Shown: positions 54,050 to 63,650 of the stretch, one piece after another | Layout of the letters: each line of letters starts with the position of its first letter | Numbering within the stretch: the first letter of the stretch is position 1 | NCBI RefSeq assembly: GCF_000380985.1 | Contig: NZ_KB905695.1 | Location: forward strand, 310,001 to 374,000 | DNA: 64,000 nucleotides | Source: Proteiniphilum acetatigenes DSM 18083 | GTDB taxonomy: Bacteria > Bacteroidota > Bacteroidia > Bacteroidales > Dysgonomonadaceae | Reading direction: 5' to 3' | Made by a program: the position numbers and the translations under genes | Notes under the pieces: model-generated | The model's database searches: none | What the model was told of the DNA's origin: nothing | The model's input: the letters and a program-made list of their open reading frames with translations, nothing else

Positions 54050-54180
54050 AAATGCCTGGGAGTCGAGATCGGAAGATTGGGAGATAAGGAGATTGGGAGA
54101 TAAGGAGATTGGGAGAATGAGGAGGTATGGAAGATCGATAATTAGTAATTTGTAATTGATAATTAGTAATTTGATAAAAT
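54001..54180 (+). repeat. Composite word-like repeat tract upstream of galE
   Basis: From the end of the Tricorn-type gene the DNA consists of short degenerate words: AAAAGTGAAGAATTAA and AAAAGTGAAAAAT, then repeated GGAGATTGGGAGATAA units (54078-54115), then AATTAGTAATT copies (54139-54170), ending 4 bases before the galE ATG. The order and words match the tract at 63415-63650 read on its own strand. The first words overlap the coding end of the protease. Confidence 0.75.
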
Positions 54181-54183
54181 ATT

Positions 54184-56533: not shown

Positions 56534-56977
56534 TTATTTTTCTCCTTCTTTTGTTTCAGATTCATCAGAAGCACTCTCCTCTGTTTTTTCCGCTTCTTCC
56601 AGGTCGATATTGTGCTCTGTCAAAATATTATACCAGGAAATTATTTTTTTTACATCACCCGCATAGACGCTGTCCCGGCTGTAATCGGGCAGTACCTCAC
56701 CCAGATATGTAAACAACTCTTTGCCGGACGCTTTGGATCCCAGGGATACCTGTTTGCCTCCCTCTTTTTCTTTTATTTTTTTCAATACCTCCCGCAACGG
56801 AGTATCCCCACTTTGGGTATATATGGATACATCACTCAGGGCTACCACCTTTTCCTGTGCATATACAGGAACACGTTTTCCATCGGCAAGCGATTCAACG
56901 ATATTCATATTTTTATTGGTGGAGATGAGTTTATATAAGCCTGGACGGCCGGTGATAGATAATATTTCGGACAACAT
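56534..56977 (-). CDS. DUF5606 family protein
   Basis: A 147-residue cytosolic protein starting MLSEILSITGRPGLYKLIST, with VVALSDVSIYTQSGDTPLRE and GKELFTYLGEVLPDYSRDSV, typical of DUF5606, and an acidic low-complexity tail (EEAEKTEESASDESETKEGE). The family is restricted to Bacteroidota and often lies near phospholipid or cell-envelope genes, as here before cdsA. The function is unknown. A consensus promoter is found upstream at 57020. Confidence 0.85.
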   Translation of the reverse strand: MLSEILSITGRPGLYKLISTNKNMNIVESLADGKRVPVYAQEKVVALSDVSIYTQSGDTPLREVLKKIKEKEGGKQVSLGSKASGKELFTYLGEVLPDYSRDSVYAGDVKKIISWYNILTEHNIDLEEAEKTEESASDESETKEGEK

Positions 56978-57019
56978 AATTAATTTCTGTTTAGCAACCG
57001 GGTTTAATTTTTAACGGTG

Positions 57020-57051
57020 CAAAAATACGGAGTCCGCGCCACATTCGCAAA
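57020..57051 (-). promoter_or_regulatory. Consensus promoter (TTTG-N20-TATTTTTG) for DUF5606-cdsA
   Basis: On the minus strand TTTG (57051-57048) and TATTTTTG (57027-57020) are 20 bases apart, an ideal match to the Bacteroidetes promoter. The start site would be near 57013, giving a leader of about 35 nt before the ATG at 56977. Confidence 0.65.
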
Positions 57052-57102
57052 CTTTTTCCCAAAAAGAGAATTTGTTTCGGAAAAATAAGTTACTTTCGTG
57101 AA

Positions 57103-57203
57103 ATGCGCTTCGCGCGTAGTGTGTTTTACACGATAGTGCCTTCGGCGATAATGTGCTTCGTGTGATAGTGCGCTTTGCGCGATAATATATGCTTTGACCG
57201 ATA
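57103..57203 (+). repeat. Tandem array of 16-17-base mini-hairpins
   Basis: Five clear units and one degenerate unit follow the pattern [AG]TG-stem-TT[CT]-stem-GATA. Stems: GCGC/GCGC (57105), GTGT/ACAC (57121), GCC/GGC (57138), GTGC/GTGT with wobble pairs (57153) and GCGC/GCGC (57170). The loop is TTC or TTT each time. The stem letters change from unit to unit while pairing is mostly kept, so the structure rather than the sequence seems to be conserved. The array ends 13 bases before the ATG at 57216 and lies in the 5' region of the lactonase-type gene. Confidence 0.75.
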
Positions 57204-57215
57204 AATGTAAGAAAG

Positions 57216-58418
57216 ATGATTAAGAAAATAGCGATGGCAGGCATGGCAACGGCTTTGTTAATTTCATGTACAGGAAACCGTTCCGGAAAAGCAGGCGATA
57301 GGAATGCATCGGAGAAGACGCTTCCGGCGATAGAGACTATGAGTGGAGACCTCTTTTTATTGGCAGGAACCTACACTTCCGAAGAGGGCAGCAAAGGGAT
57401 ATATTTATACCGTTTCAATACCGATACCGGGAATTCCGACTCGGTCAGCATGGTGGAAGTCGATAATCCGTCGTATCTGACCTTGAGTCCGGACGAGCAG
57501 TTTATTTACACGGCAAGTGAAAATAACGAGTCAGGGAGTGCTGTACACGCTTTTTCGTTCGATAAACGGAGTGGGAAGATAGAACTGCTGAACTCCCGCC
57601 CTGTGAACAGTAGCGCCCCTTGTTATATCACTATCGACAGTAAAGGGCGGAATGTGCATACTGCAAATTATGGAGGGGGAACCATTACCTCGTTTCAGGT
57701 AAAAGAGGATGGCACACTCACTTCAGCCGTCTCGATGATCGCTTTTAATGGATCCGGCCCGGATTCTGTCCGGCAGGAGAGTGCCCACCTGCACTGCGTG
57801 AGGTATTCTCCCGACGGGCAATATCTGTTTGCTGCCGATCTGGGGAGTGATAAACTTTATCGATTCGATGTGAACGATACCCCGTTTGAGGGACAGCCCG
57901 GGTTGATGGATAACAGTCTGAAAGAATTTATTTTACCTGCAGGCATCGGGCCGCGCCACTTTGATTTCCATCCCGACGGAGGCAGATATTTTTACCTGTT
58001 AGGTGAGTTATCGGGAGAAGTGATTGTTTTTGATTATGCTTTCGGTGAGTTGACCCAAAAACAGATAATTGCAGCTGATTCGACGGGTGCCAGAGGTAGT
58101 GCCGATATCCATGTCTCACCCGACGGGCGTTTTTTATATGCCTCGAACCGGTTGCAGGCCGATGGGATCGCTATCTTTTCCATTGACCCGGACGAGGGAA
58201 TACTCACGAAAACTGGTTATCAATTGACAGCAAAGCATCCACGTAATTTTGTGATCACACCTAATGGGAAGTTCCTTCTGGTAGCCGGTAGGGATGATAA
58301 TAAGATACAGGTGTTCCGCATCGATACTGAGACAGGGTTGCTGACCGATACCCATCAGGATATCCCCGTCAGTAAGCCGGTCTGCCTGAAGTTTGCAGGA
58401 ACAGACCGGAACGACTGA
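57216..58418 (+). CDS. Lactonase-fold (6-phosphogluconolactonase family) lipoprotein
   Basis: A 400-residue lipoprotein (lipobox LLISC) with the seven-bladed propeller of the PF10282 lactonase family: LFLLAGTYTSEEGSKGIYLY, NPSYLTLSPDEQFIYTASEN, RNVHTANYGGGTITSFQV, HLHCVRYSPDGQYLFAADLG, GPRHFDFHPDGGRYFYLLGE and HPRNFVITPNGKFLLVAGRD. Cytosolic members hydrolyse 6-phosphogluconolactone; this one is exported, so its substrate is probably another lactone or it binds a ligand. The last 50 bases overlap the end of the convergent glycosyltransferase gene. Confidence 0.88.
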   Translation: MIKKIAMAGMATALLISCTGNRSGKAGDRNASEKTLPAIETMSGDLFLLAGTYTSEEGSKGIYLYRFNTDTGNSDSVSMVEVDNPSYLTLSPDEQFIYTASENNESGSAVHAFSFDKRSGKIELLNSRPVNSSAPCYITIDSKGRNVHTANYGGGTITSFQVKEDGTLTSAVSMIAFNGSGPDSVRQESAHLHCVRYSPDGQYLFAADLGSDKLYRFDVNDTPFEGQPGLMDNSLKEFILPAGIGPRHFDFHPDGGRYFYLLGELSGEVIVFDYAFGELTQKQIIAADSTGARGSADIHVSPDGRFLYASNRLQADGIAIFSIDPDEGILTKTGYQLTAKHPRNFVITPNGKFLLVAGRDDNKIQVFRIDTETGLLTDTHQDIPVSKPVCLKFAGTDRND

Positions 58419-63414: not shown

Positions 63415-63650
63415 AATTATTATTCAATTACCAATTACCAAATTTAATTACCAATTAGTAATTACTAATTACTAATTATCGGTTTCTCCCAATCTCCCCC
63501 GGCCTCCCGGTCTCCCAGTCTGACCTCCCTGCCATTTTTCACTATTCGTTTCGCGCAATCTGCTCCCGCTCGGCAAACCCAAGTAAACTTGTTTTACTCT
63601 CACTTACTCACAGATTTCACTATCAATTGTCAATTGTCAATTGTCAATTA
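63415..63650 (-). repeat. Composite repeat tract between pyrB and pyrI
   Basis: Read on the minus strand from pyrB to pyrI: ACAATTG-type words (63651-63620), a segment with GAGAGTAAAACAAGTTTACT (around 63600) that I recall as a dispersed Bacteroidota sequence, AGTGAAAAATGG, GGGAG-rich words with GGGGGAGATTGGGAG (around 63490-63530), then GATAATTAGTAATTAGTAATT words up to the pyrI ATG. The AGTGAAAAAT, GGGAGATTGGGAG and GATAATTAGTAATT parts occur in the same order at 54001-54180. No gene is seen. Confidence 0.72.

Follow-up and report, generated by a model that had tools for sequence, protein, structure and literature searches.

Tandem mini-hairpins in a GATAR frame as a dispersed intergenic repeat family of Proteiniphilum

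By its sequence matches, a tandem array of mini-hairpins at positions 57103 to 57203 of the window is a member of a dispersed family of tiny intergenic repeats, found in its own genome and in six congeners. The window is the whole stretch of DNA that we analyzed, 64,000 nucleotides of Proteiniphilum acetatigenes DSM 18083 (G000:C4:310001-374000; genome, 4.78 Mb). Five properties of the family can be read directly from comparisons of DNA sequence: its dispersal, a palindromic frame, a polarity that follows gene direction, a lineage-specific leader, and turnover between species. On balance, we lean toward the view that it is a REP-like palindromic DNA repeat that lacks the REP tag, and in the richest genomes also a REP-type transposase, and that its units were made or kept as DNA hairpins and then decayed.

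An array of six mini-hairpin units

The array has six head-to-tail units, all in the same orientation (plus strand). Each is made of a short stem arm and its complement, with a loop of three bases between them. The separators between units are GATAG, GATAA or, once, GTAG, and the units are spaced 16, 17, 15, 17, and 17 bases apart. Unit 1 (GCGC-TTC-GCGC, 57105 to 57115) and unit 2 (GTGT-TTT-ACAC, 57121 to 57131) each have four of four Watson-Crick (WC) pairs, and it is to the right of unit 1 that GTAG replaces GATAR. Unit 3 (GCC-TTC-GGC, 57132 to 57150 with both GATA frames) pairs at three of three positions, and unit 5 (GCGC-TTT-GCGC, 57164 to 57184 with frames) at four of four. Unit 4 (GTGC-TTC-GTGT, 57147 to 57167 with frames) has a single WC pair, the other three being G.T. 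Unit 6 is degenerate (TATATGC-TTT-GACC and then GATA, 57186 to 57203), and the pairing between its arms, ATGC and GACC, is broken.

An earlier, sequence-only reading of this DNA had described units of 16 to 17 bases in a frame of TG, stem, loop, stem, and GATA. The frame and the pairing of the arms hold up well. WC pairs make up 17 of the 23 stem pairs, and none of 20,000 base shuffles had as many (mean, 6.2; SD, 2.0; maximum, 15), which excludes a chance origin of the pairing. The stems do co-vary from unit to unit, as that reading had proposed. However, the unit length was right for four of the spacings and wrong for the one of 15 bases, and the description of paired units suits the four perfect ones but had omitted unit 4, with its three G.T pairs, and the broken unit 6. 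Tandem Repeats Finder picked up from the array 57136 to 57186 alone, with a score of 44, which is low because the units are degenerate.

A probable leader of a lactonase-type gene

The array lies between two genes that face in opposite directions, as had been stated. Upstream, on the minus strand, is a DUF5606/DUF6852 gene (147 aa, 56534 to 56977), and downstream, on the plus strand, is a lactonase-type gene (PF10282, 400 aa, 57216 to 58418). The lactonase start codon at 57216 is 12 bases past the last GATA of the array. On the plus strand upstream of the array are TACTTTCG (57091 to 57098) and a TTTG box (57071 to 57074), which we take to be the -7-type and -33-type elements of the Bacteroidetes promoter consensus. 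TACTTTCG stands ahead of the lactonase gene in 7 of 23 orthologues from the genus, and TANNTTCG in 17 of 23. Because the promoter element just upstream is conserved in relatives, the array is probably part of the 5' leader of the lactonase mRNA, with transcription predicted to start upstream of it.

By eye, an array is visible ahead of the lactonase gene in 4 of the 23 orthologues. The distance from the promoter element to the start codon is 117 bases in the own genome, 140 in G015, 117 in G010, and 77 in G012, all of which have the array, as against 50 in G007 and 31 in G014, which are without it. The counterpart of unit 2 has the arms GTGC/GCAC in G015 and GTGT/GCAC in G010. In an array-less genome (L024), the lactonase orthologue is preceded by an 11-bp inverted repeat of unrelated sequence, AAGAACGATAT...ATATCGTTCTT. 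On the minus strand of the window, a 77-aa open frame spans the array (57011 to 57244); it is probably meaningless, because the array is missing or altered in relatives.

Relatives of the array in the genome and the genus

A BLAST search with the array against its own genome gave 14 matches at E ≤ 10. One of these is the array, and the four that follow it lie in three other intergenic arrays or units. A structure model gave 37 matches at E ≤ 10 in the same genome, 17 of them at E < 0.03; this model favors pairing, and some of the own-genome loci came from it. The pattern GATARTG-N8-13-GATA has 81 matches in the own genome, against 32 for the same pattern read backwards. We also searched 39 genomes of the genus with a sequence-only model derived from 18 units. 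At E ≤ 10, it matched 19 of them; at E < 0.01, it matched 7, the own genome and six congeners. The matches number 41 in the own genome (G000), 23 in G007, 23 in G015, 5 in G012, and 15 in G054, whose sequence is incomplete. Thus, the further arrays whose absence would have refuted the earlier reading do exist in the own genome and in its relatives, as found by BLAST, models, and patterns.

A strict 21-base pattern found 16 stretches in the species collection, all in metagenome-assembled records, and records near the own genome were possibly excluded from that search. The titles of the 16 records name Proteiniphilum, Bacteroidales, Bacteroidia, Porphyromonadaceae, or Bacteroidetes. The array had no match in the plasmid collection at an E of 1e-5, and one 21-base pattern had no exact match in the IMG/VR viral contigs. 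In an order-wide survey of 393 genomes, the own genome was the sole match at E ≤ 0.1; this is a weak negative, because the filters were strict and 20 candidates were scored per genome. Five other genomes that bear arrays were probably outside the 393-genome draw.

A GATAR frame with interchangeable stems

We then searched with a frame-only pattern of three GATAR words at the proper spacing, which demands no stem and no loop. Its matches and those of the backwards control numbered 64 and 24 in the own genome, 52 and 18 in G007, 55 and 13 in G015, and 36 and 24 in G010. In five other Bacteroidetes genomes, the numbers were 59 and 14, 18 and 6, 25 and 4, 44 and 17, and 40 and 14. Some of the frame-only matches are different repeats, such as GATAATTGATAATTGA in G015.

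The stem test in the five other genomes used 150 of 186 frame matches (4 of 40 from G435). Among the matches listed, 31 of 261 distinct framed segments have stems of at least 4 bp, compared with 7.4 in shuffles (maximum, 16 in 500 runs); 9 have stems of at least 6 bp (0.2 in shuffles; maximum, 3), and 5 have stems of 8 bp (0.0 in shuffles; maximum, 1). The stems are of several kinds: GCGC, ACAC, CGCC, ACGC, ATCAC, AACCAC, and an 8-bp type represented by ATTTCGTT together with ATTTCGAT, ATTTTGTT, and GTTCCGAT. Seven units of the 8-bp type, hand-picked at one length with three of other lengths omitted, have two-sided changes at four of the eight pairs, and 96.4% of their cells are standard pairs. 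In 500 shuffles, neither this percentage nor the covariation score was ever reached, whereas 26 of them reached four pairs and 187 reached the number of pair types.

A hairpin flush with the right-hand frame occurs in 54 of 163 segments of the other genomes (9.8 in shuffles; maximum, 18) and in 44 of 295 segments of Proteiniphilum (17.7 in shuffles; maximum, 27), with seed units included in both counts. Among non-seed segments, stems of 4 bp or more are present in 12 of 51 from the other genomes (1.9 in shuffles; maximum, 5), a set that omits the array-less matches L223, L227, and L234. The numbers are not significant for non-seed Proteiniphilum segments (9 of 77; 4.2 in shuffles; maximum, 13), a set that omits the matches judged to be chance (L132, L136, L137, L161, and L179), or for the own-genome pattern matches (5 of 108; 2.7 in shuffles; maximum, 9). 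The earlier reading would also have been refuted by stems no more paired than by chance. Stems pair above chance in the five other genomes and in the pooled Proteiniphilum set that includes the seeds, but not in the two stricter Proteiniphilum sets.

Position, gene direction, and turnover

For the polarity of the units, we used 85 loci from six genomes, of which 69 are clean gaps and 16 overlap an open reading frame (ORF) call. The set was drawn without 5 of the 14 G054 places, the single match of G045, and the matches from the remaining genomes hit by the sequence-only model. The flanking genes are co-directional with the unit in 54 of the 69 clean gaps, co-directional against it in 2, convergent in 7, and divergent in 6; the 54 gaps are not independent, because orthologous loci were counted once per genome. 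When the ORF-overlapping rows are assigned by their neighbors, the ratio is 61:5, or 61:7 with the in-gene matches L137 and L179. In the own genome it is 18:1, or 21:3 with the ORF-overlapping rows.

Among the 61 clean gaps with an upstream gene in the same direction, 16 have a match that starts at most 5 bases from the stop codon of that gene, and the GATAR separators carry sense stop codons. A translation relay, with stop-start overlaps at GATAATG or GATAGTG and a 17-base chain of ATG, four codons, and TAR, was considered and rejected, because the chain is broken by the 15- and 16-base units and by those of the ATGC type.

The polarity is weaker in the other five genomes, where seven co-directional gaps agree with the seed unit and four run against it. 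In five of these 11 gaps, from three of the genomes (L210, L211, L217, L222, and L228), an antisense array comes after a sense array. The middle of the L222 gap and, more loosely, that of the L228 gap resembles GTTGTGGCGTTGAAC. Sense and antisense arrays around such a middle suggest a composite inverted element. In the L226 gap (G431:C9), a stretch upstream of the hairpin array appears to resemble a cobalamin riboswitch.

Degenerate tandem repeats also precede start codons elsewhere in the window. They are found at 54050 to 54183, where GGAGATTGGGAGATAAGG is followed by TAATTAGTAATTTG; at 63415 to 63650 on the minus strand (CAATTGACAATTGAC); and at 569 to 1030 (GGTGGAAAGGTGG). In the first two, a purine-rich block is followed by an AT-rich block that adjoins the ATG. 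Fillers like these flank many of the hairpin arrays.

The arrays change between species while the neighboring genes are conserved. In orthologous gaps, the number of units differs between L005 and L148, a two-unit block has seemingly been repeated between L099 and L177, and the arrays of L079 and L139 are largely different. The filler around arrays has also been exchanged (L133 and L155). Such variation in unit number at fixed loci could point to growth in place, with slippage and template switching as the causes and no mobility at all; the similarity between loci would then reflect a convergent mutation process. The very different palindromes within one frame and the other degenerate tandem repeats in neighboring gaps are consistent with that idea. 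However, the 21-mer GATAGTGTGCTTCGCACGATA is present at six loci of G007 with differing flanks, which is hard to explain unless loci were copied from one another. We consider growth in place unlikely.

Pairing within and between species

We found 113 framed units in Proteiniphilum and kept the 93 with a TTC-like core for pair counts. Their 351 pairs comprise 263 WC, 31 G.U, 33 A.C, and 24 other pairs. The shuffle test on these units omits the closing pair, because the criterion of a TTC-like core favors it. The 4-bp units have 143 WC pairs, compared with 123.1 in shuffles (SD, 4.6; maximum, 143 in 2,000 shuffles), and the 3-bp units have 30, compared with 21.5 (maximum, 30). The nine ATGC-type units have 18 WC pairs, where 16.9 are expected, which is no clear excess. 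Covariation within the family is thus evident for the 4-bp and 3-bp units but not for these nine.

To follow single units between species, we collected 32 orthologous unit pairs from shift-free alignments picked by eye in 11 of 16 groups, in which G000 is the common member of some species pairs. They contain 123 base pairs, of which 26 differ. Two of the differences are two-sided and keep WC pairing, 19 are one-sided changes between a WC and a non-WC state, 2 are two-sided between WC and mismatch, and 3 are between non-WC states. The 19 one-sided differences comprise 10 G.U, 3 A.C, and 6 others. Stems differ at 30 of 246 sites and loops at 8 of 96. Two double changes are clean. In the aligned stretch, L090 and L141 are identical except for one pair, T-A in one and C-G in the other. 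The second is in unit 2 of the window array, which has T-A where G015 has C-G and G010 has T.G.

These counts bear on whether the units are mRNA hairpins under selection that tune the stability, processing, or translation of the following gene, in leaders or between cistrons. Several observations agree with that role. In 54 of the 56 clean co-directional gaps, the units have the orientation of the genes and lie between a stop and a start codon. The window array follows a conserved promoter element and is probably part of a leader. The 10:3 excess of G.U over A.C among one-sided orthologue differences is in the direction that RNA selection predicts (two-sided binomial, about 0.09, calculated by hand on unpolarized differences). 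With G.U accepted as a pair, standard pairing is kept in 12 of the 26 differences, which leaves the RNA reading weakened rather than excluded. However, the 10:3 ratio disagrees with the 31:33 ratio of the collected units, and the latter argues against selection on the transcribed strand, which should spare G.U over A.C. That stem sites differ about as often as loop sites, and that an array was seen before the lactonase gene in 4 of 23 orthologues, also counts against it.

The predicted folding does not favor RNA hairpins either. The leader RNA has a fold z of -0.62, no better than shuffles, and its best predicted structure is not a string of hairpins but pairs the units with each other. The DNA folds of the two strands have z values of -0.48 and -0.54, which are no better than shuffles and count against a DNA-hairpin repeat. 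In the predicted DNA folds, however, units 1 and 5 form separate hairpins, and we count this difference from the RNA in favor of DNA. An Rfam search of 56900 to 57400 gave Gut-1 alone, with 19.1 bits where the gathering score is 50 (E of 0.36). Taking these points together, we regard selected mRNA hairpins as a possible but doubtful explanation.

The sequence-only reading had offered two explanations of the compensatory changes, selection on structure or a copying mechanism that acts through hairpins. The first is not clearly supported, given 19 one-sided against 2 WC-keeping differences and stems that vary like loops, although the 10:3 ratio speaks for it. The second fits somewhat better, with a copying step that we infer. 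The simplest account is that the founders were palindromic and that their copies have been decaying, with occasional correction; most of the differences would then be losses.

The loops gave a separate lead. The oligonucleotide d(GCGAAGC) is described as an extraordinarily stable DNA mini-hairpin, and GNA/GNNA loops as the stable class (PMC4686876). The core GCTTCGC of the array reads d(GCGAAGC) on the opposite strand. An antisense DNA mini-hairpin predicts TNC loops in the sense strand. Among distinct stem-loop types one step from TTC, the loop changes number 1 at position 1, 11 at position 2, and 12 at position 3. Because position 3 is no less variable than position 2, the prediction is unsupported, and we rejected this idea. 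The first loop T alone appears constrained.

A possible copying mechanism

The explanation that we lean toward, a REP-like DNA repeat, would work as follows. The units, with stems of 3 to 4 bp (up to 8 bp in other genomes) and loops of 3 to 4 bases, head to tail between GATAR separators, would spread or multiply as hairpin-forming DNA. Founder units would be palindromic, because a spreading unit must fold as a DNA hairpin. One arm may be copied from the other, by hairpin-templated or template-switch synthesis, and this would create new stem types and occasionally correct old ones. The number of units would shift between species, and resident copies would mostly lose their pairing one side at a time. 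At the lactonase locus, the array would lengthen the probable mRNA leader. Several points count against this explanation. DNA hairpins alone do not explain the 54:2 polarity, and we found neither a mobilizing enzyme nor an insertion with target duplication. The 10:3 ratio, the DNA folds, the nine ATGC-type units, the two stricter Proteiniphilum sets, and the failed loop prediction weigh against it as well.

A more speculative proposal, which we put forward tentatively, is that the family represents a class of micro-repeats with a fixed GATAR frame and an interchangeable palindrome. Hairpin-dependent copying by an enzyme other than a Y1 transposase might insert or rewrite mini-hairpins in gene direction at gene ends, and might thereby give compensatory changes without RNA selection. 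Compensatory changes in stems commonly count as proof that an RNA is functional. In this family, one-sided differences between species are more numerous than double changes that keep WC pairing, so it provides a natural test of whether hairpin copying of DNA can yield such changes. It is also a repeat class with a strong gene-direction polarity in which we found no mobilizer.

Comparison with known repeats

The sequence-only reading had stated that no element of this kind was known. We recognized no description of a GATA-framed hairpin array in the literature covered, which was searched by titles and abstract openings, with most subscription journals and all bioRxiv preprints outside its scope. 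However, REP and REPIN elements share much of the behavior seen here. Like the GATAR family, they are short, many-copy intergenic palindromes that occur in tandem groups. REPs are described as lying mostly between co-directional or convergent genes, near the end of the upstream gene, where they can supply its stop codon (PMC3733652); GATAR units likewise occur mostly in such gaps, lie near the end of the upstream gene, and carry stop codons. Compensatory changes have been reported for REPIN hairpins (PMC3116915). The differences concern structure and polarity. REPs carry a GTAG or CGTC tag in place of the GATAR separators; the one GTAG, next to unit 1, is a variant separator. The units here are head to tail, 15 to 17 bases long, with 3- to 4-bp stems and one polarity in Proteiniphilum (54:2). 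The window array has no inverted pair of palindromes that forms one long hairpin, as REPINs do, whereas the sense-plus-antisense arrays of the other genomes are a point of likeness.

These parallels raise the question of whether the arrays are the remnant of an ordinary REP/REPIN family, driven by a RAYT transposase that has since been lost. Such a remnant would account for palindromes outside genes, close to the 3' end of the upstream gene, that can supply a stop codon, as REPs do (PMC3733652), and for sense and antisense arrays within one gap in three other genomes, like REPIN doublets. However, the GTAG or CGTC tag is absent as a rule, and the RAYT domain (Y1_Tnp, PF01797) has no match in the three richest genomes, G000, G007, and G015, though G007 has identical, apparently young copies. 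PF01797 matches occur in 4 of 12 genomes: G012, G054, G010 (weak), and G048 (interrupted). The two with a clear Y1_Tnp, G012 and the incomplete G054, have 5 and 15 model matches, compared with 41, 23, and 23 in the richest three. We think a RAYT remnant very improbable.

BrickBuilt of Porphyromonas gingivalis is described as a minisatellite-MITE with 23-base units, a leader, a tail, and inverted-repeat ends, and its authors report that they found no BLASTn matches outside P. gingivalis (PMC4596501). Like the arrays studied here, it is a dispersed, intergenic element of Bacteroidetes made of tandem units with imperfect copies. However, the window array is not a BrickBuilt element: its units are spaced 15 to 17 bases apart, not 23, and within 57040 to 57280 (241 bases) no inverted repeat brackets it. 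The small dispersed repeats and STRRs of cyanobacteria are likewise tiny dispersed or tandem intergenic repeats; by description, they are set apart by other sequences and another phylum.

Template switching, which can create and correct hairpin stems, has been described for RNA genes such as those for rRNA and microRNA (PMC8794818). It is a mutation mechanism, not a repeat family, but it accounts for two-sided stem changes made in one step and for new perfect stems. It would give two-sided changes without RNA selection. REP-type repeats, whose defining tag is missing here, are the nearest known kind.
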